From positions 58,417,920-58,481,919 of the forward strand of contig OY282606.1 in the NCBI GenBank assembly GCA_958298945.1: 64,000 nucleotides of DNA, in the 5' to 3' direction. The position numbers and the translations under genes were made by a program. Below are positions 8,805-60,903 of the stretch, in pieces; position 1 is the stretch's first letter; every line of letters starts with the position of its first letter. The stretch is from Atherix ibis (taxonomy: Eukaryota; Arthropoda; Insecta; Diptera; Athericidae). The notes under the pieces were generated by a model, which had not been told where the DNA came from, made no database searches, and was given only the letters and a program-made list of their open reading frames with translations.

Positions 8805-8817
8805 AAATCAAAACAAA

Positions 8818-20890: not shown

Positions 20891-21055
20891 GAAAATGAGG
20901 CCAAAACCACAATTGTCGGTTCTCGATTTTCATTCTATCGATTTATCTTCTTTTATTTCGGAGTAACACTCACCTACAATATAAAAAAATTAATAAAAAT
21001 AGTGTACAAATTGGCATATCTTATTTGCTATAGTTTATACTTCAAAAGCACTCAA
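20891..21055 (-). pseudogene. asp: asp relic Z: decayed exon 1 and part of exon 2
   Basis: On the minus strand, 21041-21055 reads TTG AGT GCT TTT GAA, the five-codon asp exon 1 with its start ATG changed to TTG. Past an intron like that of the other copies, the exon 2 start (VSVTP) appears but is followed by two in-frame stops, then NENREPTIVVLA. Similarity ends at about 20891 in mid-exon. It is clearly more diverged than copies A-D, so it is an older fragment. It lies before copy A in the same orientation. Confidence 0.85.
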
Positions 21056-21241
21056 CGCTCACAAGATTTTGACATGAACTATATGAAATTCAAATATTAC
21101 AAAACATGAATTAGAATGATAATAAGTCTACTATGAATTAGATCGATAATAAGCCTACTAATTAATACAAAATAATTATATTTATACACGCGCAATGAGA
21201 ATTTATTGAGGGCACGTTATTGTTTCAAAATAATATGCAGA

Positions 21242-21483
21242 TCAAGTAAAGAAGCCAAACCAACGGTTGATTTTGAAGTTGAATGCTGAAGTGTCATATT
21301 GTAGGTTAGCTAATTGAGCGGAATTAAAATTGAACGATTTTACTATTTTTAATTCATTACAATTTTTGATTTGTTCGGGACCATAAACACCATTCACAGT
21401 TTCATCCGTCTGGCCTCCATTTTCGCCTTTATCAAAGCAAAATTGTAAAAACATACCGAATTTTCTCTTTGTTAACTTCCATC
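21242..21483 (-). mobile_element. Mariner transposase N-terminal fragment (spacer unit 1)
   Basis: From an ATG at 21481-21483 the minus strand reads MEVNKEKIRY, then after a one-base frameshift LQFCFDKGENGGQTDETVNG and VYG, matching the start of mariner transposases. The downstream part is not transposase-like. The same relic is present at 33889-34107 (+) and 47930-48170 (-). Confidence 0.65.
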
Positions 21484-21834
21484 TTTTACACCCTATAACT
21501 TATAACTGAACAGACAATCAAAAAACTCCAAAAGATTTTTTTTAGTACGGACTGTCACTTTTCCAACGAGCACAAGTCTCAACTTGTTTGATCAATACTT
21601 TACGAGATGTATATCACTACTAGCGAAAATATAATGTATTTCTTTTTCCCAAACTATTACTAATGGTGTAATCTCGATTTTGATGAACTGCTCAATAGTA
21701 AACTGAATATAATTTGGATAGCATTGAAGAAACTGTAAAAGGGATCCGTCGTAAATAGTTAACTGTCTACACTTTTTGAGAGGTAAAAGGAGAAAGTTCC
21801 AACGCTCTAAATGTAAGCCCAGAAGAATATGTTA

Positions 21835-22240
21835 ATAAATAAAAAAGCACCTGGGGCCTGATGCTATAGCTGCTATACCAAAGTTTCTCTTAAAGCAGCA
21901 ATTGCGTTATGTAAAATGATATTTTTGGATATGTTTAATAAAGGCCCGCATCAGTAAAATTTGCCTGAACACTACAAGATGCAATGCCTTGCATTACTTA
22001 CAAAAAGAAAAAGCCACCTAAATACGATTTGTCCTACCGACCAATTTGTCTTTTTGATATGACCGGAAAAATCTTCAAGCGTATATTGAGCGACCGATTA
22101 TACGATTACCGGAAAAATCTTCAAGCGTATATTTTTTGATCAATTTGAGGAATACACCGAAGGAGAGAGGAGGTTATGCAGAAGAGAATGTGATTTCAGA
22201 AAAGCACGCTCCACTTTAAATGTAATTGGAATTTATATAA
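21835..22240 (+). mobile_element. LINE reverse-transcriptase fragment (spacer unit 1)
   Basis: The plus strand reads NKKAPGPDAIAAIPKFLLKA, later KPPKYDLSYRPICLFDMTGK with IFKRILSDRLYDY, then after a short internal repeat CDFRKARSTLNVIG. These are the fingers motifs of R1/I-group LINE reverse transcriptases. A 31-base piece (gattaccggaaaaatcttca and on) is repeated locally near 22105-22130. Copies lie at about 33140-33545 (-) and 48520-48925 (+). Confidence 0.7.
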
Positions 22241-23289
22241 GGTGGAATTCTCACATATAAGTTGTTTTAGTAGGTTAAAGTCCTACATTTTGACTTTCAA
22301 TCTTTTCCTCCCAAAAAATGTGTGGTTTTCCCATCTGCGGTTACATAATGCAGCCAACAACATTGACGATGAAATTCTCACACTGATTCTCGTAGCTAAC
22401 GGAGCCTACTTAAATCATTCTAAAATGTTCTGAACACTGCTTCTCAGGACATTATTTTGCTAGTCCTCTGTATTCTTCGTAAACTCGGGTCCTCAGCAGA
22501 ACAAAATGCAAATTCTTAGCCGCGTTTGAGACGAGGATTCTCCAAAGAATTTTTGCCTACTATATAAACATGAACAGCCTGTTTAACAATGAGCAGATTT
22601 AGAGCTATCACGACCACTTTGTTGTGGCTAAAATCAAAGTAATTGGCTGTTGTTAGCTTGCTACGAGTATTTCATCCGTATTAATGAAGGAGATCCTATT
22701 TGAAAAGTCTATATCCTGGGTCTGTTAGTCTGGACTAATCCACTAACTAACTAGATGGTATTAGTCTGGACTAGTCAAACATTCTGAAGTTTTCGTTCCT
22801 TGCGTTGGCCATTATTTTACAAGGCCCCATTCAAATGTCTTTTTTTCTGACGACTTGCTTTATCCCAAATCTATATGAAGGATAAGATGAAGTGAGAGCT
22901 GAAATTCATGTAATTTTTTCTTTATTTTATTTGTTCTTTACGTTTTCTTTTCATTTTTCTTAAAATGCAATTCAATTTTTTTAAATTATAATTTGCATTT
23001 CATTAGCTATGAAAAATTTGATTTATTCTTTATGAATATTAAATAAATATATTTTTCTCCCCGTTCCCTTGGTTTATTATTTTACTATGCATTTTTGGAG
23101 GCTTTCAACATCGTACATTTATGAAAATATAGAACGAGTTGAGGGCTCTTGTGTGCGGTCAGACGGTCGAATAACATTAAAGCTGATGAAACGCTCAGAA
23201 AATAGTAATTCGCATCATATCGGACATTGCAGATGTGAACATCCCGTTACATGGCCATCACCGTTAATATTTTTGTCGGAAACACGTAT

Positions 23290-23380
23290 TCCAGTGGTTT
23301 CCCAGTACCGTATTCTTCTGATCTAAGCCCATGTGCGTTTTCCCCAAGATAAAAAAAACACTTGAAGAGACACCTCAGTA
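23290..23380 (+). mobile_element. Mariner transposase C-terminal-like fragment (spacer unit 1)
   Basis: The plus strand contains PYSSDLSPCAF and, one frame away, CVFPKIKKTLEE, which together resemble the mariner motif YSPDLAPCD...FPK.K. The inverted copy of this piece supplies the first 14 codons of the long open frame of asp copy A. Confidence 0.5.
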
Positions 23381-24460
23381 CTGTCAGTAATATCCAAAGG
23401 TGTATAACCTTCCAGCATTTCTACAAGGAATAAAAGCAACTCCTCCGCCTATTGTTACAATAACAAAAATCAGAAATCACTTCTCAGATACGCATTGTAT
23501 ATAGACGTGTCACAAGCCGACACGGGTCAACTCATGCAACCAAACATTGTTTTAAATATGGAAAAAATTTGCAAAATGATATATGCTAAACTTCCGATTA
23601 GAATTTAATTTTTTTATTCAAACAAATTGAACAATGTCTTTAAATTAAAGAGTTGATTTTAACATTATAAGTGTAAGAAATTAAAAAAATGTGAATGCTA
23701 TTTGAATGCAAAGGCGCCAAATATATTACATCATGTAAATATACAGATAGACGCAGTATCTGCTACACAGTACTCGCTTTTCAATATCGAGATTCATTTT
23801 TAAGAGCTTGAAAAAATGAATTCCGATCGTTTTGCTATTTTAACAAATAAAAATTCGAGAACAATGAATATCGAGTTTTTAAACACATTATGATACTTTA
23901 TCAGCAATCGTAAATTTACCATTTTTTAATGCTGAATTGATGTCTACTCGTAGGTGCCGGTTTATACTTTACATCCCAATGGGATTTAATAAATATTTCT
24001 AGTCAACTTCAGTTCAGTTTATATTATTTTATTTAAATTTTCTATTTAAAATATACAAATTTTAATAATACACTATGCGTAAATAATTATTTATCACTAC
24101 TAGTTATATAAAAATAAATACATATTATACGAGTAGGAATCTAAAAACAAATAAATGATAACATGCATCAATATTATTTTTATTAATATAATTAATTTCT
24201 AGTCTTTATTAATAAAGTGACAATAAAGTTTTTTGTAAATTATAACAATCGTAATTTATACAATTATTATTTAAAACATGACAAAATTCATATTTTCAAA
24301 AACTTTTATAAATAAAATTCCGGACACATTAATGAAAACTCAATATGACAGAATAACATATATAAATAATTAGATAAAAACATTAAAACGCAATTAAAGA
24401 AAAAGTATTATTATTGGTACTATATGTTACTATTTTTATTTTCAAATATTTATTGAAATC

Positions 24461-24630
24461 TGTTAATTGTTCGTTCTGTGATCGTTCGTCATAACTCATT
24501 TATTATGGTTTCAATTTAGTAAGATTTTTTATTTTTATTTTCAAAACTATTTAATCATATAAAAAATCTTATTAAATTTAAAACATAATAAATGAGTTAA
24601 GATGAACGATCACAGAACGCACAATTAACA
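24461..24630. repeat. Long inverted repeat (MITE-like) just past the asp A stop codon
   Basis: Arms of about 72 bases, tgttaattgttcgttctgtg... at 24461 and its near-complement ending at 24630, face each other around a spacer of about 26 bases, with a few mismatches. It starts four bases after the asp stop codon (24635-24637 on the minus strand), so it would sit at the beginning of the 3' UTR. The same structure follows copy D at 51145-51314. Confidence 0.8.
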
Positions 24631-24634
24631 TAAA

Positions 24635-27600
24635 TCAAATAATATAAATTTCTAATGTTGATAGTACTGTGTCAAATGCAAAAATAGAACACAAAAAAGT
24701 GTACGGCTTTGTCTTGATCACATTAAAGTCGGGCTCCAAACTGGGAAGTTTCCTCCGCAATAGCGAAGAAGATATACTTTGTATGTGATGTAGTGGTTTT
24801 CTTATATTTTGTCGCATTTTTTCTTTTCGTGCTACCAGTTTCTTAGTTTCCCGTAGCATAAAAATTGCATCCGCTGACGTCATGAATTCTCTAATTTTCT
24901 GTAAAAAAAATTCGGAAAAATTATAAATTTTAGCACTTACAAAAATTATAATATAGGAGTTGAAGATAAATTTGAAAATTTTTTTATGAATAAAACAATA
25001 CACATTGTAGATTTTTCTAAATAATTTAGACATTAAAAATAATTAATAAAACATTATTTAACTAAATGTTTTTAATTTCGATATAAGGGATAGGTTATTG
25101 CTTCTATCTAAATAGAAACCAATCAAATTCTTATTTCGCATTTATGAATGTTTAGTAAAGATCTTAATGCAAAACTTCTGCCGACGTACATACGTATAAA
25201 AGAATTCGTTTCTTTTAATGTATTTTTAACAAAACATTTGTTAAATTATAATAAAAGTTCTTGTTAATTTTATTTTATAATATTAAAAAAAAAAATCTTT
25301 CGTTCAATTTATTGCCTCAGGTATAAGTGAGACTAAGTCTGTAATTACCAAACTTAACGATTGTTCATGGATGAAGTTTATTCATGTTAGGGTATTAAAT
25401 TGGGTTCCAGGTCTTATTTTTAAAACATGAAATAAACTTGTACCTCGCATACCCATCTTTACTGGTCCACTAACAAATTGATAAATAGTTAAACTCATAG
25501 ATAGACTACACTCGAAACCGATATATGTTAGGGCAATTAGTGAATCAGGATAAATAAAATATTTCAAAGAACCAGGATAAATCAAATATTTTGAATTTGG
25601 TCGAAACAGAAATACTTTACATAAAATAATTATTTTAAATCTATAGTCTACTCGTACTAACCTGCTTTTTATAATCGCATTGTGCAAATACCCATATTAA
25701 TGTACAAAGGGTATTAAATATTTCGCAATCCTTGTCGCACCAACGCAACAACATTTGAGCAATTGTGACAAGACCATTTTCTTGGAAGGTGTCCGCACGA
25801 GTCAAATCGAAGCGAGCCAAATTCAGTATAATTTTACTACATAACTCGATGAGTTGTTTATCTGCCTCCGAACGAATTGCTTGTGCCATTATGCCATAGC
25901 AGAATGAGGCTATAAAGTGTACATACTCCATAAGACTATGCGGAACTGTTCTCGAAATATTCTCTAAGCGCAACAAATTGCATAGTGCATAGTGCTGTAT
26001 ATTAAAACGCCCCTTTAGAAATTTGATGGAAGCACAAATCTTATATCGAAGTGTGTTACAGGGTTTCGCCTTATGCGCTAATTCTTTTATATTGCGTCTT
26101 ATCATTTTTATTTTCCAACCGGCAGCTACTTTGCGCACTAAGTAACCGCGCCATGCTGCCTGAATAGATTTGGCAGCTTTTTCGCGTTTAATTTGCTCTC
26201 GCCGTTCAGGTGTCATATTTTCCAAGAAACGCTTCCGGGCCAACACTCCGCGGATACGAGCCTGGATACCAATTACCGATCTTTGAACCTCCTTGAAGTT
26301 TCGTCTATCCTGTCGAGCCTGAAGTATGCTTCGAAATCTTCGCTGAATGAGCACGGTTGTACATCTCAGTTTCAGAAATTGTTGTCTCGTTTCCAGCATT
26401 TACTTCTTGTTTCTATAACTCCGTTGCAGATTAATCACTAATGAACGAATCAATAAATATTGATTGTGAATTTTAAGCATTTCACATCTCGCACGGAATC
26501 GTCTCTGCAATACTAGAACGTTTTTCTTCAGTAAAAGGAATGAAGCACGGGCTTTTCTTGCTATAAGAATAGACCTGAACTGTCGCTGAATGCAAACTGT
26601 GGCTGTTTTCAAATGCAAAAAAGTTTGTCTTTGTATCCGCATCTCCACCAATGCCCGAAATCGTATTTGGATTGTCCGTGTGTTCTGCAGAATTCTTAAA
26701 TATTCGTCTCTCTGTTTGCGCATCATTAATAGTGCTTTAAAACGGCGCTGAATAATACCTGCAGCCTTTTTCAATTCTAAAAATTGTTTTCTTTGTGTCT
26801 TCTTCATAAGATATGTTCTAAAGTAACGTTGAATTATGATTACTTTACGTTTGAATTCCAGAAACTCTTCTGTCTTAGCACGCATTAATTGCCAAGCTCG
26901 ATAGCGCCTTTGAATAATGACAATAGACTTCCGAATAGACACAAATTCTTCCCTAACGGAACGCGCGACCAGAAAACTACGGAATTGCCGTTGAATGATG
27001 ATTATTGCTTCTCTTGTCTTTCGGTATTCATACTGAGCAGTTTGCATTGATTTTGTTGACTTATACCATCGTTGAATATGTAAAATAGCGTCATATGTTC
27101 TAGTGAAAGTAGTTCGGGAAACTTCCATTTGTCTTTTAGCCCGATAGCGTATTTGACAAACTTTCACTGCCCATTTGAGCTTTTCATAATAAATATGTTC
27201 CTTTCGCATACAAACTGTCGCTCTATAATAGCGTTGAATTACAATTAAGGCATTACGTTTTTTCTGGAAGAGTGATCGAGCCATTTCCATTTTTTTCTTC
27301 GCCCTATAACTACGCTGTAGAAAGAGAGTTACAGAACGTAAAATTGTATAATTATCCCTTGCCTTTCGCATTTCGCAATTAGCTCTAAATCTCGTTTGAA
27401 CCACTACGACAGCATTCCGATAACGATGGTAGTTGTCATATTCAATATTTCTTAGCAGATGCGCCCTATAATAACTTTGCAATATGCACGTGGCATTTCG
27501 TTGTCGTAAATATTCTGCTCGCTGAATTTTCATTAATTTACTAGATCTAAATTGCCGCTGAATAATTTCGCAAGCAGTTTTAATTTTTCTGTAATTATCT

Positions 27601-30600
27601 CTAGCCTTCCTCATGCTTTTAATTGCCCTATATCGGCATTGCATTATAATTGCAGCATTTTTTAACTTAATATAAGACAATTGAGTCTGTTTACGTAGTA
27701 AATGACTACGAAATCTTATCTGAATGCAAATTGCAGAACTGCGCATGCACATGTACTTCTTGTACAAAATTTTCATCGATAAATGCGCACGATATCTTTG
27801 CTGAAGGACAATTGCAGCTGACCGTAAAAGTAAGTAAGATCTACGAGCTTTTCTTGCCGCCAGATAAGTACGGAAGTGCCTTTGTATAACGATCGATGCC
27901 CATCGCAGTTTTATATATCCAGCATAAACTTTCCTTGCTACGTTGTATCCTCGGTAGTGCTGTTGAATACATAAAACAGCTTGACGGATTTCTACATACT
28001 TAGCGCGCTGCAATTTCATTGCAATGTAACCACGAAAATATTGCTGAATCCGAATAGCTGATTGTCTCTTCCTTATGTATGTAGATCTGGTTATCTTCAT
28101 CAGTAAGTTTGCTCTAAATCGTTGTTGAACAACAACGCCATAGTGTTTAACTAGTGTGAAATGTTCCAATTCTTTCTTCATCATGCAATTGGCTCGGAAT
28201 CGTCTCTGAATTGCTATAGTATAGTACTGCATCCAGAGAAAATCACATCTCACACGCCTAGCAAGTAACGTTGCTCGCCACTTCCGTTGAAGCGTTATTG
28301 TTCTGGATTTAATTAACATAAATTGAGCCCTGATAGCCTTCATTTCACGATGTGCTCGATAGTGCATTTGTAGGGCACTTGCAGCATGTTTCAATGCATT
28401 ATAATCTTTGTATTGCGCGCGCATCAATTGTTGACCTCGGAAATATCGTTGTATTTTTATAATAGCTGCTCGTTTTTCCAAGTATTTTTTTTGCGATGAA
28501 CGCATATCTAAAGTTGCACGCCAGACTTGTTGGATCAAAATTATTTTCATGCGAATTTCTAAGAATTCAGATCGCATATGCTTCATTATGTTATTTTATA
28601 TGATCGGAAATACGTTTGAATTTTAATAGCATTATTTCGCAAAAGAATGTATTGTGTTCGTTCGACGCGCATTTTAGTATAGCCTCTAAAGTAAACTTGA
28701 ATAGTTTTTGTGGCTTGACATACCTTTATGAATTCATTTCGATGCAATCGTATCGATATAATAGCTCGCCATTTCCTCTGTACGACGATTGCACTTCTCT
28801 TTAAAGACAAGTATTTGCTACGTATGGAAATCATTCGGAATAGTGATTGAATTTTAATAGCACTTTTGGATCTCAATTTGAAATTCCGTTGATAGTTTAC
28901 TACTCCTTGGACCATTAATCGGAACTTTTTTCGAGTTATATACGATTTAAAGCATCTTTGAATTACGATGGCCTTTTCATACTGAAGCCGTGCTTGCACT
29001 TTTGCATCCCTTATTATAGGAATGCAAGCTGTTAGCTTGCGAGAAAACAGAATTCTTCGATACCATATTTGAATTTTAACAGTGCTTTGCCTTAATTGCA
29101 TGTACGTATACCTTATTATTCGAGTTGAATATGAAGATCGATACCAACGTTGAATCGTGATTGTACTAAAAACAATTCGTTGGAATCGTATTTGTGCTAC
29201 AAAACGACGAACATACTTTTGAAGACAAATAGCTGCATCAACGCGTTCTGCCTTGAATATATCGACAAATCGACGTGCCATGCAACCACGAAACGTAGAT
29301 TGAATAACCACCGCTGCGTTGTGTCTGCGCATTTGTATTTTATGTTGGATTCGCCTTCGAATTATGGTTTTAAGCCAAGATTTTCGCCACCATTGTTGGA
29401 TAACATTTGCAGCTTCATTAAATATTGGTGCACGAAATTTGTAAATAATCTGCCATAATAAAGAGAGCGTCTTCTCGCGGTGCCCGTCGACAATATCCGC
29501 TGCAGTTATATCACCTTTTAGTTCAAAACTTGCATCGGATAATGCTTTCAGTGCCAAATTTACATTGAAAATTCGTTGAAGTCGAGATATTGCCGGTACG
29601 CGAAGTTGTTGTGTTAGACCATCTTTTAGTAAGATTATCTCCATAACTCGTGTTAATCGAATCCCATCACGCATATCTACTGCGATGTTATTGAATGCAT
29701 AGTTAAATTCATCAAGGAAAGTCTGTTTATGTGTAAGAACATATCCAAAACGTTTTAAATTTCTTGTAATGTCTCCCATACTCGCTAGAAGTTCAGAAGA
29801 GAAACGGATCAAAATTTCCCGTGTCTCCTTGTATGGTGAAGTCTTCACAAACAAACATGGATTATGACGTATAATTCGCTTTGCTTTCGCTTTGTCAAGA
29901 AACAAAAGCAAAAACAAAATTTTTTGTAATGTGAACTTCTTTATATGCTCAGAATATTCTTTAGAAAACGTATAAGCACAAGTATAATTTTGTTCAATAT
30001 ATTTATCGCGAAAAAGACGATTCAATATAAAAGTACTAAGTCCGACTATATCACTGTTCGAACTCATTCCCACAATTTCACCAAAAACTGCTTCTAAGCC
30101 AATTCGCAGCCATAAAGGATTAAAGCACAGCAGCAACTCGAGTATATAACGTTGTAGAACAACGTCCAAATGCAGGTCACGATCTTTACGCATTTCAATA
30201 AGTTTCTTGTTGATACAAACTGCTACTCTAGAACACGGTTCACGCATTTCTTCACTCATGAATAATTGGACCGCTGCGAAGCGCAAGCTATCCATACGAG
30301 ATTTTGTCAAATAGCTCATTGACCGTTCCTCTTTACTAGGTGCCAGGGAGACATCTTTATTTCTAATCTCATGGAATAAGCGACCAACGTCGATTTTTTT
30401 ATTAAAATCAAACTCGGCTGGAATTGTGACTAAAGCATTTAACCATTTCTTGAATTCCATTTCATGCTTCAGTAGCGACCTCTCATCAAGATACATTGTG
30501 GCTGTTAGGAATGGATCACAAGTTGTTGTAGCTGCAAACGGATCAGGATTGATAACTGTCTGTAGAAATAGGTGCGAATCATACAAAACTTTTCGTTCCT

Positions 30601-32004
30601 CAGTAACTTTCCGAGGTGTAATTGGAACTTTCAAACACAGAGTATTTGTTGCTCTCACTTTTTTTGGTTTTCTTCGTGACCATGTATTAACGTTGCTTTT
30701 CGTACTTTGTGGATTTGACATAAAACATTTAAGGTCTTCATTGAATTTAGTGCGTTTTGGTGGTGATACTGCCATACATACCGCCGATTGATTAGAACGA
30801 TCAATAGCCAAATAATTATTAGACGAATTTGGTGATCCTGCAGAAATTTCTCTTGTTCGTTTGTGCCGTTCAGAAATGGATTCACCACATTCATATTTAA
30901 TTCCTGGTGTTGATGTATATTTTCGATAGTAGCATTTCGTATTTGAACTGGTTACTGAAGTTAATACATTACTTTTAATGCCAACTTCATTAATATTAAA
31001 ACGACTTGATTGTGCCAGGATTTCGTTATGGTTAAAAATTTCCTCATGATTACTAACCATACTAGTAGTAATATCCACGGATTCATCTAAATTAGTTTGT
31101 TTGAACAAATCTTTAATGTCATGCTGTTGATAATAGCGATTACTTTCAATAGGATCAATTGTATCCAAATCATTAAGATTTGGCAAAGAACCTTGATTAC
31201 AAGTACCAAGTCGAAACTGAGGAGATAGTTGCGATAAATCTTTCAAAGATTCAGAATATGTACGGAGAGGAGTACACACTAATTGCACATCACGTTTTAT
31301 GTCTTCTTCTCCCATAATTTTATTTCCTGTTATATTGAATGTTTGCTGCAAATTTTTCGTCTTAACTTCTAACACCTCTTCTTCAATAATAGATAATATT
31401 TTAGAATTATCAATTGTAGTAGTACGATTTAAAGGAACTAATTCTGTTTGCGCTGAGTCCGACTCTTTCCGTTTAGCTGGCGATGCTTCCGTTGAAGAGA
31501 TCTCATAACTAATATCATGCTTTTCAGTTTTTAGATCAAAGGTTTTATTAATTTGGGTCTTGGCTGGTAATTGGCAAAATCCATCAATAAAGTCATTATC
31601 ATTCGAAAAGTAATGTTCTTTACTAAACACAGTTGGCGCAACCGCAATATGATTATTAGGTGAACTAACTAATTTCTGTTGCATTAACGTTATCGATTCA
31701 CTAGTTTTCTGACCAGCAGATAATGTAATTTTTGAATATTCTACCTTCCGATTATCCTCTGGAGACATTATTGTCGATAATCGCTTCGGTTGAACTTTAC
31801 TTTTAATGTCTGGATTTGTAATGCCTGCCTCGACTTTGACTCTATACACTGGAGTTGGAAGTGAGGCTAAATAATCTAGATTATTTCTAGTTTTTACTGC
31901 CGATAATGGTGTGAATTTTATAACCTCAAAAAGAGACGAAACATTTGTTGGTGTTACCGGGCTATAATTTTCTTTTCCAATTGTATCTTTCGACGTAATA
32001 ACTG
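24635..32004 (-). pseudogene. asp: asp copy A: 5'-truncated, frameshifted, nonsense-bearing
   Basis: Copy A carries most of exon 4 (25662-32004) and exon 5 (24635-24898), nearly identical to copy D. It lacks exons 1-3 and the first part of exon 4; asp sequence starts at VITSKDTIGKENY. A five-base insertion at 28590-28594 shifts the frame after RSYKI, and a C-to-T change makes TAA at 26400-26402 where D has CAA (after RSYRNKK). Near 26000 a three-base net insertion changes IQDALC to IQHYALC. The long open frame from 32044 starts with 14 codons from flanking transposon DNA. It is very unlikely to make Asp. Confidence 0.93.
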
Positions 32005-34107
32005 TCTCTTCAAGTGTTTTTTTTATCTTGGGGAAAACGCACATGGGCTTAGATCAGAAGAATACGGTACTGGGAAACCACTGGAATACGTGTTTCCGAC
32101 AAAAATATTAACGGTGATGGCCATGTAACGGGATGTTCACATCTGCAATGTCCGATATGATGCGAATTACTATTTTCTCAGCGTTTCATCAGCTTTAATG
32201 TTATTCGACCGTCTGACCGCACACAAGAGCCCTCAACTCGTTCTATATTTTCATAAATGTACGATGTTGAAAGCCTCCAAAAATGCATAGTAAAATAATA
32301 AACCAAGGGAACGGGGAGAAAAATATATTTATTTAATATTCATAAAGAATAAATCAAATTTTTCATAGCTAATGAAATGCAAATTATAATTTAAAAAAAT
32401 TGAATTGCATTTTAAGAAAAATGAAAAGAAAACGTAAAGAACAAATAAAATAAAGAAAAAATTACATGAATTTCAGCTCTCACTTCATCTTATCCTTCAT
32501 ATAGATTTGGGATAAAGCAAGTCGTCAGAAAAAAAGACATTTGAATGGGGCCTTGTAAAATAATGGCCAACGCAAGGAACGAAAATTTCAGAATGTTTGA
32601 CTAGTCCAGACTAATACCATCTAGTTAGTTAGTGGATTAGTCCAGACTAACAGACCCAGGATATAGACTTTTCAAATAGGATCTCCTTCATTAATACGGA
32701 TGAAATACTCGTAGCAAGCTAACAACAGCCAATTACTTTGATTTTAGCCACAACAAAGTGGTCGTGATAGCTCTAAATCTGCTCATTGTTAAACAGGCTG
32801 TTCATGTTTATATAGTAGGCCAAAAATTCTTTGGAGAATCCTCGTCTCAAACGCGGCTAAGAATTTGCATTTTGTTCTGCTGAGGACCCGAGTTTACGAA
32901 GAATACAGAGGACTAGCAAAATAATGTCCTGAGAAGCAGTGTTCAGAACATTTTAGAATGATTTAAGTAGGCTCCGTTAGCTACGAGAATCAGTGTGAGA
33001 ATTTCATCGTCAATGTTGTTGGCTGCATTATGTAACCGCAGATGGGAAAACCACACATTTTTTGGGAGGAAAAGATTGAAAGTCAAAATGTAGGACTTTA
33101 ACCTACTAAAACAACTTATATGTGAGAATTCCACCTTATATAAATTCCAATTACATTTAAAGTGGAGCGTGCTTTTCTGAAATCACATTCTCTTCTGCAT
33201 AACCTCCTCTCTCCTTCGGTGTATTCCTCAAATTGATCAAAAAATATACGCTTGAAGATTTTTCCGGTAATCGTATAATCGGTCGCTCAATATACGCTTG
33301 AAGATTTTTCCGGTCATATCAAAAAGACAAATTGGTCGGTAGGACAAATCGTATTTAGGTGGCTTTTTCTTTTTGTAAGTAATGCAAGGCATTGCATCTT
33401 GTAGTGTTCAGGCAAATTTTACTGATGCGGGCCTTTATTAAACATATCCAAAAATATCATTTTACATAACGCAATTGCTGCTTTAAGAGAAACTTTGGTA
33501 TAGCAGCTATAGCATCAGGCCCCAGGTGCTTTTTTATTTATTATTCTTCTGGGCTTACATCTAGAGCGTTGGAACTTTCTCCTTTTACCTCTCAAAAAGT
33601 GTAGACAGTTAACTATTTACGACGGATCCCTTTTACAGTTTCTTCAATGCTATCCAAATTATATTCAGTTTACTATTGAGCAGTTCATCAAAATCGAGAT
33701 TACACCATTAGTAATAGTTTGGGAAAAAGAAATACATTATATTTTCGCTAGTAGTGATATACATCTCGTAAAGTATTGATCAAACAAGTTGAGACTTGTG
33801 CTCGTTGGAAAAGTGACAGTCCGTACTAAAAAAAATCTTTTGGAGTTTTTTGATTGTCTGTTCAGTTATAAGTTATAGGGTGTAAAAGATGGAAGTTAAC
33901 AAAGAGAAAATTCGGTATGTTTTTACAATTTTGCTTTGATAAAGGCGAAAATGGAGGCCAGACGGATGAAACTGTGAATGGTGTTTATGGTCCCGAACAA
34001 ATCAAAAATTGTAATGAATTAAAAATAGTAAAATCGTTCAATTTTAATTCCGCTCAATTAGCTAACCTACAATATGACACTTCAGCATTCAACTTCAAAA
34101 TCAACCG
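32005..34107. repeat. Inverted copy of the spacer unit, left part
   Basis: It is the reverse complement of spacer sequence at about 21258-23370, including the LINE RT relic and the mariner N-terminus. Small variants (aagaataataaataaa without the extra gtt found near 21828, and ttttggcctac) match the spacer at 47.7-51 kb rather than that at 21-24 kb, so this block derives from the former type. Confidence 0.88.
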
Positions 34108-34465
34108 GAGTCTGGTCCAAAACCTAAACAGTTCGGATGCAAAAATATATTAAAATCAAAGTGAAATAAAATAAGTACAAAAGTGAAATAATTCACTTTT
34201 GTATTATTTAATATAATACAAAATATATTATATAATATTATACTTTTAATACGTACAGACAATGGTGTGAAAAGTGTTGAAAAAAAAAATAAAGCAAACA
34301 CGTATATTAATAATAAATAATAAATATTTAAAAAAAAAAAAAACACTGGAAATTAAAGTGATTCAGTATTGGAAAAAAAAAAATTTTATTGCTTAGAACA
34401 CAAACGGAAGAGTTCATTTTATCGAGTTCCGAGTTTATTTCGTTTTTGTGTTCCTTGTAACTGTA

Positions 34466-38539: not shown

Positions 38540-38658
38540 AATAAAATTACCCTGTTCTAGAGGTAACATCGATGGGTGTTTTCCTCCACATGTCTTCATG
38601 TCCTTGTATATTTCCATAAAAAATCTGCTTGTTACTAGCATAAGTAGTTGTAGATATC

Positions 38659-38690
<32 letters not shown>

Positions 38691-38695
<5 letters not shown>

Positions 38696-38906
38696 ACCGT
38701 TGGTTTGGCTTCTTTACTTGATCTGTATATTATTTTGAAACAATAACGTGTCCTCAATAAATTCTCATTGCGCGTGTATAAATATAATTATTTTGTATTA
38801 ATTAGTAGGCTTATTATCGATCTAATTCATAGTAGACTTATTATCGTTCTAATTCGTGTTTTGTATTATTTGAATTTAATTTAATTCATGTCGAAATCTG
38901 TCAGCA
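38691..38906. repeat. Inverted spacer unit, right part, upstream of asp copy B
   Basis: After the LINE target duplication, the spacer continues as the reverse complement of 47745-47960, leading straight to the asp exon 1 of copy B. The LINE tail is thus about 215 bases from the copy B start codon. Confidence 0.85.
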
Positions 38907-46259: not shown

Positions 46260-46295
46260 ACACAGTTTGCATTCAGCGACAGTTCAGGTCATAAA
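46260..46295. other. Rearrangement joint with 30-bp templated insertion
   Basis: Between the end of copy B (46259) and the start of inverted copy C (46296) lie one base, then 30 bases (46261-46290, cacagtttgcattcagcgac...) identical to 45633-45662 inside an IQ-repeat codon block of copy B, then ataaa. The filler was copied from about 600 bp away in the same gene or from the matching site in another copy. Confidence 0.88.
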
Positions 46296-47744: not shown

Positions 47745-50700
47745 TGCTGACAGATTTCGACATGAATTAAATTAAATTCAAATAATACAAAACACGAATT
47801 AGAACGATAATAAGTCTACTATGAATTAGATCGATAATAAGCCTACTAATTAATACAAAATAATTATATTTATACACGCGCAATGAGAATTTATTGAGGA
47901 CACGTTATTGTTTCAAAATAATATGCAGATCAAGTAAAGAAGCCAAACCAACGGTTGATTTTGAAGTTGAATGCTGAAGTGTCATATTGTAGGTTAGCTA
48001 ATTGAGCGGAATTAAAATTGAACGATTTTACTATTTTTAATTCATTACAATTTTTGATTTGTTCGGGACCATAAACACCATTCACAGTTTCATCCGTCTG
48101 GCCTCCATTTTCGCCTTTATCAAAGCAAAATTGTAAAAACATACCGAATTTTCTCTTTGTTAACTTCCATCTTTTACACCCTATAACTTACAACTGAACA
48201 GACAATCAAAAAACTCCAAAAGATTTTTTTTAGTACGGACTGTCACTTTTCCAACGAGCACAAGTCTCAACTTGTTTGATCAATACTTTACGAGATGTAT
48301 ATCACTACTAGCGAAAATATAATGTATTTCTTTTTCCCAAACTATTACTAATGGTGTAATCTCGATTTTGATGAACTGCTCAATAGTAAACTGAATATAA
48401 TTTGGATAGCATTGAAGAAACTGTAAAAGGGATCCGTCGTAAATAGTTAACTGTCTACACTTTTTGAGAGGTAAAAGGAGAAAGTTCCAACGCTCTAGAT
48501 GTAAGCCCAGAAGAATAATAAATAAAAAAGCACCTGGGGCCTGATGCTATAGCTGCTATACCAAAGTTTCTCTTAAAGCAGCAATTGCGTTATGTAAAAT
48601 GATATTTTTGGATATGTTTAATAAAGGCCCGCATCAGTAAAATTTGCCTGAACACTACAAGATGCAATGCCTTGCATTACTTACAAAAAGAAAAAGCCAC
48701 CTAAATACGATTTGTCCTACCGACCAATTTGTCTTTTTGATATGACCGGAAAAATCTTCAAGCGTATATTGAGCGACCGATTATACGATTACCGGAAAAA
48801 TCTTCAAGCGTATATTTTTTGATCAATTTGAGGAATACACCGAAGGAGAGAGGAGGTTATGCAGAAGAGAATGTGATTTCAGAAAAGCACGCTCCACTTT
48901 AAATGTAATTGGAATTTATATAAGGTGGAATTCTCACATATAAGTTGTTTTAGTAGGTTAAAGTCCTACATTTTGACTTTCAATCTTTTCCTCCCAAAAA
49001 ATGTGTGGTTTTCCCATCTGCGGTTACATAATGCAGCCAACAACATTGACGATGAAATTCTCACACTGATTCTCGTAGCTAACGGAGCCTACTTAAATCA
49101 TTCTAAAATGTTCTGAACACTGCTTCTCAGGACATTATTTTGCTAGTCCTCTGTATTCTTCGTAAACTCGGGTCCTCAGCAGAACAAAATGCAAATTCTT
49201 AGCCGCGTTTGAGACGAGGATTCTCCAAAGAATTTTTGGCCTACTATATAAACATGAACAGCCTGTTTAACAATGAGCAGATTTAGAGCTATCACGACCA
49301 CTTTGTTGTGGCTAAAATCAAAGTAATTGGCTGTTGTTAGCTTGCTACGAGTATTTCATCCGTATTAATGAAGGAGATCCTATTTGAAAAGTCTATATCC
49401 TGGGTCTGTTAGTCTGGACTAATCCACTAACTAACTAGATGGTATTAGTCTGGACTAGTCAAACATTCTGAAATTTTCGTTCCTTGCGTTGGCCATTATT
49501 TTACAAGGCCCCATTCAAATGTCTTTTTTTCTGACGACTTGCTTTATCCCAAATCTATATGAAGGATAAGATGAAGTGAGAGCTGAAATTCATGTAATTT
49601 TTTCTTTATTTTATTTGTTCTTTACGTTTTCTTTTCATTTTTCTTAAAATGCAATTCAATTTTTTTAAATTATAATTTGCATTTCATTAGCTATGAAAAA
49701 TTTGATTTATTCTTTATGAATATTAAATAAATATATTTTTCTCCCCGTTCCCTTGGTTTATTATTTTACTATGCATTTTTGGAGGCTTTCAACATCGTAC
49801 ATTTATGAAAATATAGAACGAGTTGAGGGCTCTTGTGTGCGGTCAGACGGTCGAATAACATTAAAGCTGATGAAACGCTCAGAAAATAGTAATTCGCATC
49901 ATATCGGACATTGCAGATGTGAACATCCCGTTACATGGCCATCACCGTTAATATTTTTGTCGGAAACACGTATTCCAGTGGTTTCCCAGTACCGTATTCT
50001 TCTGATCTAAGCCCATGTGCGTTTTCCCCAAGATAAAAAAAACACTTGAAGAGACACCTCAGTACTGTCAGTAATATCCAAAGGTGTATAACCTTCCAGC
50101 ATTTCTACAAGGAATAAAAGCAACTCCTCCGCCTATTGTTACAATAACAAAAATCAGAAATCACTTCTCAGATACGCATTGTATATAGACGTGTCACAAG
50201 CCGACACGGGTCAACTCATGCAACCAAACATTGTTTTAAATATGGAAAAAATTTGCAAAATGATATATGCTAAACTTCCGATTAGAATTTAATTTTTTTA
50301 TTCAAACAAATTGAACAATGTCTTTAAATTAAAGAGTTGATTTTAACATTATAAGTGTAAGAAATTAAAAAAATGTGAATGCTATTTGAATGCAAAGGCG
50401 CCAAATATATTACATCATGTAAATATACAGATAGACGCAGTATCTGCTACACAGTACTCGCTTTTCAATATCGAGATTCATTTTTAAGAGCTTGAAAAAA
50501 TGAATTCCGATCGTTTTGCTATTTTAACAAATAAAAATTCGAGAACAATGAATATCGAGTTTTTAAACACATTATGATACTTTATCAGCAATCGTAAATT
50601 TACCATTTTTTAATGCTGAATTGATGTCTACTCGTAGGTGCCGGTTTATACTTTACATCCCAATGGGATTTAATAAATATTTCTAGTCAACTTCAGTTCA

Positions 50701-51314: not shown

Positions 51315-51318
51315 TAAA

Positions 51319-51582
51319 TCAAATAATATAAATTTCTAATGTTGATAGTACTGTGTCAAATGCAAAAATAGAACACAAAAAAGTGTACGGCTTTGTCTTG
51401 ATCACATTAAAGTCGGGCTCCAAACTGGGAAGTTTCCTCCGCAATAGCGAAGAAGATATACTTTGTATGTGATGTAGTGGTTTTCTTATATTTTGTCGCA
51501 TTTTTTCTTTTCGTGCTACCAGTTTCTTAGTTTCCCGTAGCATAAAAATTGCATCCGCTGACGTCATGAATTCTCTAATTTT
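51319..51582 (-). CDS. asp: asp copy D, exon 5 (C-terminus)
   Basis: After TTTTTTTACAG the exon opens in phase 0 with KIREFMTSADAIFML and ends TLEIYII then TGA. It continues from the donor CAG|GTTAGT at 52346 in the same phase, replacing the intronic read-through VSTSRL. The joined tail (KKLVARKEKMRQ ... FAFDTVLSTLEIYII) looks like a plausible end of the armadillo-like region. The equivalent exon of copy A is 24635-24898. Confidence 0.85.
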   Translation of the reverse strand, partial: KIREFMTSADAIFMLRETKKLVARKEKMRQNIRKPLHHIQSISSSLLRRKLPSLEPDFNVIKTKPYTFLCSIFAFDTVLSTLEIYII

Positions 51583-54500
51583 CTGTAAAAAAAAATTCGG
51601 AAAAATTATAAATTTTAGCACTTACAAAAATTATAATATAGGAGTTGAAGATAAATTTGAAAATTTTTTTATGAATAAAACAATACACATTGTAGATTTT
51701 TCTAAATAATTTAGACATTAAAAATAATTAATAAAACATTATTTAACTAAATGTTTTTAATTTCGATATAAGGGATAGGTTATTGCTTCTATCTAAATAG
51801 AAACCAATCAAATTCTTATTTCGCATTTATGAATGTTTAGTAAAGATCTTAATGCAAAACTTCTGCCGACGTACATACGTATAAAAGAATTCGTTTCTTT
51901 TAATGTATTTTTAACAAAACATTTGTTAAATTATAATAAAAGTTCTTGTTAATTTTATTTTATAATATTAAAAAAAAAATCTTTCGTTCAATTTATTGCC
52001 TCAGGTATAAGTGAGACTAAGTCTGTAATTACCAAACTTAACGATTGTTCATGGATGAAGTTTATTCATGTTAGGGTATTAAATTGGGTTCCAGGTCTTA
52101 TTTTTAAAACATGAAATAAACTTGTACCTCGCATACCCATTTTTACTGGTCCACTAACAAATTGATAAATAGTTAAACTCATAGATAGACTACACTCGAA
52201 ACCGATATATGTTAGGGCAATTAGTGAATCAGGATAAATCAAATATTTCAAAGAACCAGGATAAATCAAATATTTTGAATTTGGTCGAAACAGAAATACT
52301 TTACATAAAATAATTATTTTAAATCTATAGTCTACTCGTACTAACCTGCTTTTTATAATCGCATTGTGCAAATACCCATATTAATGTACAAAGGGTATTA
52401 AATATTTCGCAATCCTTGTCGCACCAACGCAACAACATTTGAGCAATTGTGACAAGACCATTTTCTTGGAAGGTGTCCGCACGAGTCAAATCGAAGCGAG
52501 CCAAATTCAGTATAATTTTACTACATAACTCGATGAGTTGTTTATCTGCCTCCGAACGAATTGCTTGTGCCATTATGCCATAGCAGAATGAGGCTATAAA
52601 GTGTGCATACTCCATAAGACTATGCGGAACTGTTCTCGAAATATTCTCTAAGCGCAACAAATTGCATAGTGCATCCTGTATATTAAAACGCCCCTTTAGA
52701 AATTTGATGGAAGCACAAATCTTATATCGAAGTGTGTTACAGGGTTTCGCCTTATGCGCTAATTCTTTTATATTGCGTCTTATCATTTTTATTTTCCAAC
52801 CGGCAGCTACTTTGCGCACTAAGTAACCGCGCCATGCTGCCTGAATAGATTTGGCAGCTTTTTCGCGTTTAATTTGCTCTCGCCGTTCAGGTGTCATATT
52901 TTCCAAGAAACGCTTCCGGGCCAACACTCCGCGGATACGAGCCTGGATACCAATTACCGATCTTTGAACCTCCTTGAAGTTTCGTCTATCCTGTCGAGCC
53001 TGAAGTATGCTTCGAAATCTTCGCTGAATGAGCACGGTTGTACATCTCAGTTTCAGAAATTGTTGTCTCGTTTCCAGCATTTGCTTCTTGTTTCTATAAC
53101 TCCGTTGCAGATTAATCACTAATGAACGAATCAATAAATATTGATTGTGAATTTTAAGCATTTCACATCTCGCACGGAATCGTCTCTGCAATACTAGAAC
53201 GTTTTTCTTCAGTAAAAGGAATGAAGCACGGGCTTTTCTTGCTATAAGAATAGACCTGAACTGTCGCTGAATGCAAACTGTGGCTGTTTTCAAATGCAAA
53301 AAAGTTTGTCTTTGTATCCGCATCTCCACCAATGCCCGAAATCGTATTTGGATTGTCCGTGTGTTCTGCAGAATTCTTAAATATTCGTCTCTCTGTTTGC
53401 GCATCATTAATAGTGCTTTAAAACGGCGCTGAATAATACCTGCAGCCTGTTTCAATTCTAAAAATTGTTTTCTTTGTGTCTTCTTCATAAGATATGTTCT
53501 AAAGTAACGTTGAATTATGATTACTTTACGTTTGAATTCCAGAAACTCTTCTGTCTTAGCACGCATTAATTGCCAAGCTCGATAGCGCCTTTGAATAATG
53601 ACAATAGACTTCCGAATAGACACAAATTCTTCCCTAACGGAACGCGCGACCAGAAAACTACGGAATTGCCGTTGAATGATGATTATTGCTTCTCTTGTCT
53701 TTCGGTATTCATACTGAGCAGTTTGCATTGATTTTGTTGACTTATACCATCGTTGAATATGTAAAATAGCGTCATATGTTCTAGTGAAAGTAGTTCGGGA
53801 AACTTCCATTTGTCTTTTAGCCCGATAGCGTATTTGACAAACTTTCACTGCCCATTTGAGCTTTTCATAATAAATATGTTCCTTTCGCATACAAACTGTC
53901 GCTCTATAATAGCGTTGAATTACAATTAAGGCATTACGTTTTTTCTGGAAGAGTGATCGAGCCATTTCCATTTTTTTCTTCGCTCTATAACTACGCTGTA
54001 GAAAGAGAGTTACAGAACGTAAAATTGTATAATTATCCCTTGCCTTTCGCATTTCGCAATTAGCTCTAAATCTCGTTTGAACCACTACGACAGCATTCCG
54101 ATAACGATGGTAATTGTCATATTCAATATTTCTTAGCAGGTGCGCCCTATAATAACTTTGCAATATGCACGTGGCATTTCGTTGTCGTAAATATTCTGCT
54201 CGCTGAATTTTCATTAATTTACTAGATCTAAATTGCCGCTGAATAATTTCGCAAGCAGTTTTAATTTTTCTGTAATTATCTCTAGCCTTCCTCATGCTTT
54301 TAATTGCCCTATATCGGCATTGCATTATAATTACAGCATTTTTTAACTTAATATAAGACAATTGAGTCTGTTTACGTAGTAAATGACTACGAAATCTTAT
54401 CTGAATACAAATTGCAGAACTGCGCATGCACATGTACTTCTTGTACAAAATTTTCATCGATAAATGCACACGATATCTTTGCTGAAGGACAATTGCAGCT

Positions 54501-57500
54501 GACCGTAAAAGTAAGTAAGATCTACGAGCTTTTCTTGCCGCCAGATAAGTACGGAAGTGCCTTTGTATAACGATCGATGCCCATCGCAGTTTTATATATC
54601 CAGCATAAACTTTCCTTGCTACGTTGTATCCTCGGTAGTGCTGTTGAATACATAAAACAGCTTGACGGATTTCTACATACTTAGCGCGCTGCAATTTCAT
54701 TGCAATGTAACCACGAAAATATTGCTGAATCCGAATAGCTGATTGTCTCTTCCTTATGTATGTAGATCTGGTTATCTTCATCAGTAAGTTTGCTCTAAAT
54801 CGTTGTTGAACAACAACGCCATAGTGTTTAACTAGTGTGAAATGTTCCAATTCTTTCTTCATCATGCAATTGGCTCGGAATCGTCTCTGAATTGCTATAG
54901 TATAGTACTGCATCCAGAGAAAATCACATCTCACACGCCTAGCAAGTAACGTTGCTCGCCACTTCCGTTGAAGCGTTATTGTTCTGGATTTAATTAACAT
55001 AAATTGAGCCCTGATAGCCTTCATTTCACGATGTGCTCGATAGTGCATTTGTAGGGCACTTGCAGCATGTTTCAATGCATTATAATCTTTGTATTGCGCG
55101 CGCATCAATTGTTGACCTCGGAAATATCGTTGTATTTTTATAATAGCTGCTCGTTTTTCCAAGTATTTTTTTTGCGATGAACGCATATCTAAAGTTGCAC
55201 GCCAGACTTGTTGGATCAAAATTATTTTCATGCGAATTTCTAAGAATTCAGATCGCATATGCTTCATTATTTTATATGATCGGTAATACGTTTGAATTTT
55301 AATAGCATTATTTCGCAAAAGAATGTATTGTGTTCGTTCGACGCGCATTTTAGTATAGCCTCTAAAGTAAACTTGAATAGTTTTTGTGGCTTGACATACC
55401 TTTATGAATTCATTTCGATGCAATCGTATCGATATAATAGCTCGCCATTTCCTCTGTACGACGATTGCACTTCTCTTTAAAGACAAGTATTTGCTACGTA
55501 TGGAAATCATTCGGAATAGTGATTGAATTTTAATAGCACTTTTGGATCTCAATTTGAAATTCCGTTGATAGTTTACTACTCCTTGGACCATTAATCGGAA
55601 CTTTTTTCGAGTTATATACGATTTAAAGCATCTTTGAATTACGATGGCCTTTTCATACTGAAGCCGTGCTTGCACTTTTGCATCCCTTATTATAGGAATG
55701 CAAGCTGTTAGCTTGCGAGAAAACAGAATTCTTCGATACCATATTTGAATTTTAACAGTGCTTTGCCTTAATTGCATGTACGTATACCTTATTATTCGAG
55801 TTGAATATGAAGATCGATACCAACGTTGAATCGTGATTGTACTAAAAACAATTCGTTGGAATCGTATTTGTGCTACAAAACGACGAACATACTTTTGAAG
55901 ACAAATAGCTGCATCAACGCGTTCTGCCTTGAATATATCGACAAATCGACGTGCCATGCAACCACGAAACGTAGATTGAATAACCACCGCTGCGTTGTGT
56001 CTGCGCATTTGTATTTTATGTTGGATTCGCCTTCGAATTATGGTTTTAAGCCAAGATTTTCGCCACCATTGTTGGATAACATTTGCAGCTTCATTAAATA
56101 TTGGTGCACGAAATTTGTAAATAATCTGCCATAATAAAGAGAGAGTCTTCTCGCGGTGCCCGTCGACAATATCCGCTGCAGTTATATCACCTTTTAGTTC
56201 AAAACTTGCATCGGATAATGCTTTCAGTGCCAAATTTACATTGAAAATTCGTTGAAGTCGAGATATTGCCGGTACGCGAAGTTGTTGTGTTAGACCATCT
56301 TTTAGTAAGATTATCTCCATAACTCGTGTTAATCGAATCCCATCACGCATATCTACTGCGATGTTATTGAATGCATAGTTAAATTCATCAAGGAAAGTCT
56401 GTTTATGTGTAAGAACATATCCAAAACGTTTTAAATTTCTTGTAATGTCTCCCATACTCGCTAGAAGTTCAGAAGAGAAACGGATCAAAATTTCCCGTGT
56501 CTCCTTGTATGGTGAAGTCTTCACAAACAAACATGGATTATGACGTATAATGCGCTTTGCTTTCGCTTTGTCAAGAAACAAAAGCAAAAACAAAAATTTT
56601 TGTAATGTGAACTTCTTTATATGCTCAGAATATTCTTTAGAAAACGTATAAGCACGAGTATAATTTTGTTCAATATATTTATCGCGAAAAAGACGATTCA
56701 ATATAAAAGTACTAAGTCCGACTATATCACTGTTCGAACTCATTCCCACAATTTCACCAAAAACTGCTTCTAAGCCAATTCGCAGCCATAAAGGATTAAA
56801 GCACAGCAGCAACTCGAGTATATAACGTTGTAGAACAACGTCCAAATGCAGGTCACGATCTTTACGCATTTCAATAAGTTTCTTGTTGATACAAACTGCT
56901 ACTCTAGAACACGGTTCACGCATTTCTTCACTCATGAATAATTGGACCGCTGCGAAGCGCAAGCTATCCATACGAGATTTTGTCAAATAGCTCATTGACC
57001 GTTCCTCTTTACTAGGTGCCAGGGAGACATCTTTATTTCTAATCTCATGGAATAAGCGACCAACGTCGATTTTTTTATTAAAATCAAACTCGGCTGGAAT
57101 TGTGACTAAAGCATTTAACCATTTCTTGAATTCCATTTCATGCTTCAGTAGCGACCTCTCATCAAGATACATTGTGGCTGTTAGGAATGGATCACAAGTT
57201 GTTGTAGCTGCAAACGGATCAGGATTGATAACTGTCTGTAGAAATAGGTGCGAATCATACAAAACTTTTCGTTCCTCAGTAACTTTCCGAGGTGTAATTG
57301 GAACTTTCAAACACAGAGTATTTGTTGCTCTCACTTTTTTTGGTTTTCTTCGTGACCATGTATTAACGTTGCTTTTCGTACTTTGTGGATTTGACATAAA
57401 ACATTTAAGGTCTTCATTGAATTTAGTGCGTTTTGGTGGTGATACTGCCATACATACCGCCGATTGATTAGAACGATCAATAGCCAAATAATTATTAGAC

Positions 57501-60002
57501 GAATTTGGTGATCCTGCAGAAATTTCTCTTGTTCGTTTGTGCCGTTCAGAAATGGATTCACCACATTCATATTTAATTCCTGGTGTTGATGTATATTTTC
57601 GATAGTAGCATTTCGTATTTGAACTGGTTACTGAAGTTAATACATTACTTTTAATGCCAACTTCATTAATATTAAAACGACTTGATTGTGCCAGGATTTC
57701 GTTATGGTTAAAAATTTTCTCATGATTACTAACCATACTAGTAGTAATATCCACGGATTCATCTAAATTAGTTTGTTTGAACAAATCTTTAATGTCATGC
57801 TGTTGATAATAGCGATTACTTTCAATAGGATCAATTGTATCCAAATCATTAAGATTTGGCAAAGAACCTTGATTACAAGTACCAAGTCGAAACTGAGGAG
57901 ATAGTTGCGATAAATCTTTCAAAGATTCAGAATATGTACGGAGAGGAGTACACACTAATTGCACATCACGTTTTATGTCTTCTTCTCCCATAATTTTATT
58001 TCCTGTTATATTGAATGTTTGCTGCAAATTTTTCGTCTTAACTTCTAACACCTCTTCTTCAATAATAGATAATATTTTAGAATTATCAATTGTAGTAGTA
58101 CGATTTAAAGGAACTAATTCTGTTTGCGCTGAGTCCGACTCTTTCCGTTTAGCTGGCGATGCTTCCGTTGAAGAGATCTCATAACTAATATCATGCTTTT
58201 CAGTTTTTAGATCAAAGGTTTTATTAATTTGGGTCTTGGCTGGTAATTGGCAAAATCCATCAATAAAGTCATTATCATTCGAAAAGTAATGTTCTTTACT
58301 AAACACAGTTGGCGCAACCGCAATATGATTATTAGGTGAACTAACTAATTTCTGTTGCATTAACGTTATCGATTCACTAGTTTTCTGACCAGCAGATAAT
58401 GTAATTTTTGAATATTCTACCTTCCGATTATCCTCTGGAGACATTATTGTCGATAATCGCTTCGGTTGAACTTTACTTTTAATGTCTGGATTTGTAATGC
58501 CTGCCTCGACTTTGACTCTATACACTGGAGTTGGAAGTGAGGCTAAATAATCTAGATTATTTCTAGTTTTTACTGCCGATAATGGTGTGAATTTTATATC
58601 CTCAAAAAGAGACGAAACATTTGTTGGTGTTACCGGGCTATAATTTTCTTTTCCAATTGTATCTTTCGACGTAATAACTGATCGATTTTCTGTATTACAA
58701 TAATCATTTCTAGTTGACAACGGAGAAGTTTTATAATTGTTTGAATTCATTATGGATTTTTCATTTGGTAATCGTTTAACAATTGTGGACGACTTCGTTT
58801 TAGATGGCGATGGTGTTTTAAACTTTATATTTTTGGCTTGATAAGTGATTCCATGTTTAAAGCCTGCTTTCAATTTCTGCTAGAAGAAAAATGTTAAATA
58901 AAATTATTAATCCATAAGCATTTTAGAAATGACGAATAATAGAATTACTTTTTGTATTGCTTTTGATGATTTTAAAATGACCGAAATATCTTTTTTAAAA
59001 TTTCGACTATCCGTAATTTGAATTGTCTCCTTACATGTAACTACTTTAACTGGACTCCATACAATTTCCATTTGAATTTCACTGTTTGCTTTTAGAAAGT
59101 TTGAAGTCCACTCTAACGTAATATTGTATTCAGGTTTTATACATTTTGTCACCATTACCTTAAATTATATTCATAAGAAAATATGCATTTTATATTTTAC
59201 TACGTCTTTAAAGTTTCTTTAAAATGGGTTGTAAAAATTTGCTTAATTTTAAATATTTTATTGGTAGACTCTAAATCGCTTAGTTAAAATTAACTTAGGA
59301 AAACCTCAATTCCCTACTTAACCAAAGATTAATTTTAAGAGAAATTCCAAACTCAAAAATAAATTTAAATCAGCAATAGTATATCATCAGATTTTGTTCA
59401 TCAGCATTTGGTTATAATTATCAACTATCTGTACTGCGTTTAGTAGGACTAAACCTAATTTCGATAGTTTTTGCTTATAATTTAATTGGATATTCATATA
59501 AATGGCACTATTTGTTTAAAATATATTCAATAAAGGTTTACATTAATCTATGTGTGCAATTGGACGCAAGGAGAAAAAAAATTATTGGAAGCAATTATAA
59601 ATGGAACTAGCGGAATTAATAAAGAATGCTATTCAAATATACACTTTAAAATGTTTTTGTATTTCCATAATAAACTCTATGAAAGTGCAGGAAATACGAG
59701 CAAACAGTTCATGATTATTTGGTAAGGATAAAATTTAATATACCTTTATATCGTCATTAGATGGATTTTGGATGCAAATAATACGACGCGCACATTTTGT
59801 AACAGGAACATCTTCAAAAGTAACTGTAGCTTTAGCGGAAAATGGGGCCAAAACCACAATTGTCGGTTCTCGATTTTCATTCTTTCGATTTATTTTCTCT
59901 CTTGTCGGAGTAACACTCACCTACAATATAAACAAATTAATAAAAATAGTGTACAAATTGGCATATCTTATTTGCTATAGTTTATACTTCAAAAGCACTC
60001 AT
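51319..60002 (-). CDS. asp: Abnormal spindle (Asp), copy D, the only intact copy
   Basis: Asp/ASPM binds microtubule minus ends and focuses spindle poles, working with calmodulin. Minus-strand coding exons: 1, 59988-60002 (MSAFE); 2, 59744-59920; 3, 58949-59158; 4, 52346-58876; 5, 51319-51582. All introns are phase 0 with GT/AG ends; total about 2398 residues. Domains: ASH (ASPM-SPD2-Hydin) about 26-130; basic, Ser/Thr-rich linker with TP sites about 135-700; calponin homology about 950-1056 (LTHKQTFLDEFNYAF to LLWQIIYKF); 41 IQ motifs by my count, about 1066-2190; armadillo-like C-terminus. No stop or frameshift is seen. Private changes: EKIFNHNE, LQKFLFLL, YRVHLSM. I infer this is the working gene. 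Confidence 0.93.
52346..58876 (-). CDS. asp: asp copy D, exon 4 (linker, calponin homology, IQ repeats)
   Basis: A single 6531-base exon, 2177 codons, open throughout. It starts after CTTCTAGCAG with KLKAGFKHGITYQ. An unstructured, Ser/Thr-rich part with TP sites is followed by a helical segment, the calponin homology domain and a run of IQ motifs of the form IQRRFR or IQRYYR at about 23-24-residue spacing. IQ motifs bind calmodulin or myosin light chains. It ends in phase 0 at KKQ before GTTAGT. Confidence 0.93.
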
Positions 60003-60900: not shown

Positions 60901-60903
60901 ATG

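Follow-up and report, generated by a model that had tools for sequence, protein, structure and literature searches.

The stretch of the Atherix ibis genome analysed here (the window: 64,000 nucleotides at C2:58417920-58481919, in a genome of 670 Mb and 144 contigs) contains the spindle-pole gene asp (abnormal spindle) together with several damaged copies of it. The copies were found by comparison of the window with itself, which gave few near-identical blocks, and the intact gene with its flanks (D, 47580-60286) supplied the reference coordinates for every comparison between copies. An initial annotation had described five asp-derived segments, one intact, one truncated, one inverted, one 5′ fragment and one relic, and had taken them for a recent, rearranged amplification of the gene. 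All five were recovered, and the second proposal is supported as well.

The reading frame of D has 2399 codons in five coding exons on the minus strand (60002-59988, 59920-59744, 59158-58949, 58879-52346 and 51582-51319), joined at GT/AG splice sites. Its product contains an N-terminal ASH (ASPM-SPD-2-Hydin) domain (PF15780, E 1.3e-27, 96.3 bits against a cut-off of 27) and IQ motifs (PF00612, E 1.9e-25, 86.6 bits against a cut-off of 20.3). The CH domain fell just short of its cut-off (PF00307, E 4.4e-5, 24.1 bits against 26), and this call was also missing in several fly relatives among the Asp matches listed. Protein relatives were taken from the best 120 of 1405 matches; in the conserved central CH region D matched Lucilia cuprina Asp at 73% along the full query of 441 residues. 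Many flies were about equally distant in Asp, and the same held for allatostatin A (best 120 of 308 matches). In a quick tree with 25 rows D fell outside the group formed by Syrphidae and Schizophora, but its branch was long and was flagged as unsure by the program. D is apparently the asp/ASPM orthologue and the one working copy. The other features are collected in Table 1.

Table 1 Features of the asp cluster and of two asp relics elsewhere (positions are those of the window unless a contig is given)
Feature	Position	Strand	Basis or remark
Z, relic of asp upstream region, exon 1, intron 1 and part of exon 2	20891..21340	(-)	similarity to 5′ end of D, site pattern
A, 3′ part of tandem copy 1 (3′ flank, exon 5, exon 4 to D 58680)	21341..32004	(-)
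Tripled 127-bp segment, first direct copy	31878..32004	(+)
S2, inverted asp 3′ flank (50056-47952 reversed)	32003..34107	(+)
Full-length jockey-like non-LTR (long terminal repeat) element	34108..38688	(+)	4581 bp, 26-bp poly(A), target duplication
B, inverted asp copy: hybrid (C-type) upstream region, exons 1-3, most of exon 4	38689..46259	(+)
Filler at joint 2, 36 bp	46260..46295	(+)
Tripled 127-bp segment, second direct copy	46296..46422	(+)
C, 5′ end of tandem copy 1, containing the hybrid joint of the tandem duplication	46296..48028	(-)
D, intact asp	51319..60002	(-)	open reading frame, GT/AG splice sites, domains, proteins named abnormal spindle
5′ end of D (upstream region, exon 1, intron 1, part of exon 2)	59838..60286	(-)	unequal-crossover partner
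E, older asp pseudogene, 5′ part to ~codon 890	C2:58227585-58235286		ends ~183 kb before the window
F, asp 5′ relic	C1:44035734-44040543		more diverged than E; another chromosome-scale contig

The remaining copies are all damaged. Of the 10666 columns aligned between A and D 48029-58680, 10628 are identical. Exons 1-3 are absent from A, as are the first 199 bases of exon 4; its frame is broken by a 5-bp insertion (~28586-28590) and a TAA (26400-26402). B corresponds to D 60220-52656 reversed (7542/7571 columns identical). It is truncated at D 52656, everything beyond being missing, and carries a stop at codon 75, in exon 3 (39787-39789). Exon 4 of B holds an open stretch of 2090 codons. B also has the substitution C827F, at a cysteine that is invariant in all eight relatives aligned. 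C retains exons 1-3 in frame and the start of exon 4, giving a frame of 244 codons with a stop just beyond the joint. Z, on the downstream side of asp, is an old fragment of the 5′ end of the gene, with 412 matching columns in an alignment of 450 with D.

The full-gene reading frame is open in D only and is interrupted in A, B and C, which are most likely dead pseudogenes, so that D alone would make full-length Asp. An extra working asp derived from A, B or C was considered and rejected, as none has a full-length open frame, and the extra dosage of full-length Asp raised by the initial annotation is not supported for the same reason. It is very improbable that the copies have instead gained an added function, with the 244-residue N-terminal piece of C or an internally started product of B acting as a dominant or novel protein. 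Such a proposal could draw on the long open stretch in exon 4 of B and on the in-frame exons 1-3 of C, which hold the ASH domain (the scan was done on D), but B stops early in the normal frame and has lost the invariant cysteine, the frame of C ends in chance sequence, and open length tells little in so recent a copy. Selection on the frame of B was also considered; constraint is unsupported, since the private changes of B are few and one of them is the stop and another C827F.

Very probably asp underwent segmental duplication in several steps, from which one working gene and three dead pieces remain. The first step can be read from C. The segment 46296-48028 recurs at 58554-60286, and the period of 12,258 bp is equal on both sides. 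An alignment of Z, C and D over 450 bp gave 39 variable sites, one of them a gap. From left to right, C agrees with D at 18 sites, then has a base at 47805 that is private to it apart from being common to B, and then agrees with Z at 19 of 20 sites, the exception being 47900, where the base is private to Z. C thus combines sequence of both end repeats in a hybrid joint, and a single clean switch within 47796-47825, an interval of ~30 bp of identity, explains all sites. As one crossover fits this pattern, copy 1 appears to have arisen by exchange between Z and the 5′ end of asp, gaining the upstream region of Z. Step 1 would then be an unequal homologous crossing-over in which the 5′ end of asp paired with Z, producing a 12,258-bp tandem duplication.

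A probe from the 5′ end of D was compared with the whole genome, in a DNA search that skips very common words. It gave six matches (D, C, Z, B, the end of S2 and relic E). Since every one is a piece of asp, the repeat looks like asp's own and not like a transposon or a dispersed repeat. In its hybrid joint and its one clean switch, this duplication is the same as others made by unequal crossing-over between dispersed homologous segments. It differs from the usual case in that one of the repeats derives from the 5′ end of the duplicated gene itself, as a relic, and not from a transposon or low-copy repeat, suggesting that an old fragment of a gene can seed that gene's own later duplication.

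Copy 1 would span 20891-32004 and then continue from 46423, with 14,291 bp interposed. Within the interposed DNA, S2 and B together represent 9,667 bp of the tandem arrangement, joint C included, copied in reverse orientation. The presence of this joint places the inverted block later than step 1, and B also has the base of C at 47805, which argues that B was copied after the tandem step. Both edges of the block carry signs of how it was made. At joint 1 (32003/32004) there is a 2-bp microhomology, TG, common to both templates. At joint 2, 30 of the 36 bases of filler (46261-46290) are an exact copy of 45633-45662, ~600 bp back on the same strand; no template was found for the remaining six filler bases. 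The two direct copies of the 127-bp segment differ at one position of the 127, and a third copy lies within B. The resulting order is duplicated, inverted triplicated (127 bp), duplicated.

The second step was probably a replicative template switching, similar to microhomology-mediated break-induced replication (MMBIR) or fork stalling and template switching (FoSTeS), that inserted the 9.67-kb inverted copy and tripled the 127 bp. Polymerase-theta end joining after fold-back copying is an alternative that may account for the filler. The same order is found in the human duplication-inverted triplication-duplication (DUP-TRP/INV-DUP) rearrangements of PLP1 and MECP2. According to PMC4352052, these are ascribed to two template switches and have two junctions, with microhomology and with templated insertions at junction 2. 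The asp event differs from the human cases in being a relic in the fly germline and in having a triplicated part of merely 127 bp.

Three points weigh against this account of step 2. Firstly, a staggered break with fill-in could also yield the 127-bp duplication. Secondly, joint 1 of the asp cluster lies outside any pre-existing inverted repeat, unlike the human joints described in PMC4352052. As joint 1 has only its 2-bp overlap, the layout is best called like that of DUP-TRP/INV-DUP, and not a member of the repeat-mediated class. Thirdly, the private single-base changes in the 6 kb of exon 4 shared by the copies number 10 in A, five in D and one in B. (A has in addition an 11th change, inside a complex indel, and two insertions in the same 6 kb.) Copying of B from the gene of A, which is step 2 in its simplest version, predicts similar counts in A and B, and one of 11 gives a binomial p of 0.012.

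Other differences between the copies bear on the same question. S2 differs from the flank of D at two of 2105 bases and from the flank of A at three bases and two indels. Of the amino-acid changes private to D, few can be polarised, and A and B are not grouped by them. Residue 1605 is alanine in all eight relatives aligned, so that the valine is derived in D, although the alignment of this repeat region is unsure; at residue 896 the eight relatives have isoleucine or methionine, yet Lucilia has phenylalanine; and residue 522 is uninformative. The template of B may have been another tandem copy, the sister or the homologue, or B may have been converted later. The layout is unaffected by this choice.

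The inverted copy has a later history of its own. A retroelement lies in the upstream region of B, ~220 bp ahead of the B start codon, and is flanked by an exact 11-bp duplication, AAAATCAACCG, at 34097-34107 and 38689-38699. Its first open reading frame (ORF1) encodes a gag-like PRE_C2HC domain and its second (ORF2) an endonuclease and a reverse transcriptase; it is putatively a member of the jockey clade. The element would have landed in the inverted copy after step 2, as step 3. Its confinement to the inverted copy speaks for a real structure that has been inherited.

This last point bears on whether the cluster is an artefact of assembly or library preparation, either of chimeric inverted reads or of haplotypes strung together. 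Inverted joints with microhomology also arise as amplification chimeras, and this was counted in favour of an artefact. Against it, several features are private to the inverted copy (a retroelement and its target duplication, a 6-bp insertion and some bases), the crossover switch falls in ~30 bp of identity, and the window is without N and lies within a contig of 121.9 Mb. An artefact is highly unlikely, because the crossover switch, the templated filler, the target duplication of the retroelement and the private mutations each need a germline history. Stepwise duplication in the germline, the preferred explanation, uses event types that are known and leaves copies that are ordinary pseudogenes, and it is the scars that are unusually legible. 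The cluster would be an insect example of a DUP-TRP/INV-DUP-like event in the germline, in which the interval of the crossover, the microhomology, the templated filler and the subsequent retroelement can all still be read. No report of an asp duplication in flies was found among the open-access papers listed (titles and openings of abstracts).

The possibility that the cluster acts through RNA was also considered. The copies may give rise to hairpin RNA, or to the antisense or chimeric RNA raised in the initial annotation. Convergent or read-through transcription of B and C could give double-stranded RNA (dsRNA), from which Dicer-2 would make small interfering RNAs (siRNAs) that tune asp in the germline, making this a nascent hairpin-RNA (hpRNA) locus. 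C and B form inverted arms of ~1.67 kb (1662 of 1673 columns identical) around a loop of ~5.9 kb. Both arms retain the 5′ end of asp and part of its upstream region, and they face each other, C pointing left and B right. An RNA read through the two arms would fold back into a hairpin with the sequence of asp exons 1-4. A long inverted repeat complementary to a gene, one feature of hpRNA loci, is thus present; in such loci the transcript is further cut, in a Dicer-2-dependent way, to 21-nt siRNAs by which the target is repressed. In Drosophila simulans, hpRNAs reportedly originate next to their target by partial 5′ duplication, ballchen being an example (PMC10317233), and the loci hp58 and ballchen hpRNA share with the asp pair a partial 5′ inverted duplicate adjoining the parent gene. 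The asp pair differs from these in its large loop of 5.9 kb and its long arms.

Other features speak against such a locus, which we regard as very improbable. From the start codon of C to the far end of B the minus strand contains 12 AATAAA motifs, so that read-through may end early, and the upstream region of B is occupied by the retroelement. Asp is required for cell division, and strong silencing of asp would be costly for that reason. The stronger version, in which C and inverted B are a silencer caught at birth, giving long dsRNA that represses D, and are the latest of several 5′ asp copies, is a shade less probable still. If it were true, Z, the two relics elsewhere and the C/B pair would point to a conflict over a spindle-pole gene that has recurred; in any case a ready-looking siRNA substrate adjoins a gene needed for cell division. 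Under stepwise duplication, any RNA from A, B or C would be a by-product.

The two relics outside the window, E and F, are older. The count of asp pieces in the genome is based on three DNA probes and on fetched stretches beside E and F. The 5′ end of E is ~78% identical to D, and read in the frame of D it has 11 stops, some of them in poorly aligned stretches, and many indels. F is ~68-84% identical to the 5′ region of asp where BLAST aligns the two, rising to 92% in a single piece of 37 bases. When 901 bp of the 3′ half of exon 4 (53000-53900) served as probe, the only matches in the whole genome were A, B and D, apart from a 30-bp match to the filler.

One patch of E is much closer to asp than the sequence upstream of the patch is. 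Over 600 bp (D 57750-57151) there are 16 differences, compared with 11.4% differences across ten upstream blocks of exon 4, each of 100 bases (857 bases aligned; binomial 3e-15, for a patch picked after inspection of the data and a test that left out the downstream blocks, which are 88%, 97% and 81% identical, one upstream block with nine aligned bases and the separate second piece of E). This suggests a later gene conversion between E and asp.

Several minor features were seen around the cluster. The 3′ flank of asp contains an imperfect palindrome (24446-24645 and 51130-51329; 200 bp, 81% identical to its own reverse complement). Upstream of asp, the sequence of 60611-61500 has further copies, in either orientation and at 75-79%, immediately beyond the right end of the window, and is probably a dispersed repeat. 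On the downstream side of the cluster is an Allatostatin A exon (8698-9222, plus strand) encoding three FGL-type peptides; the Pfam Allatostatin match is under the cut-off and the homologues are named allatostatin A (best 120 of 308 matches). A decayed frame at 16428-16877 may be related to a mariner-like transposase. Positions 1-6000 hold pieces of an LTR element on the minus strand, with a zinc knuckle above the cut-off and weak protease and integrase matches, and within this region there is a direct repeat of 208 bp (1822-2029 and 5024-5231, 94%).
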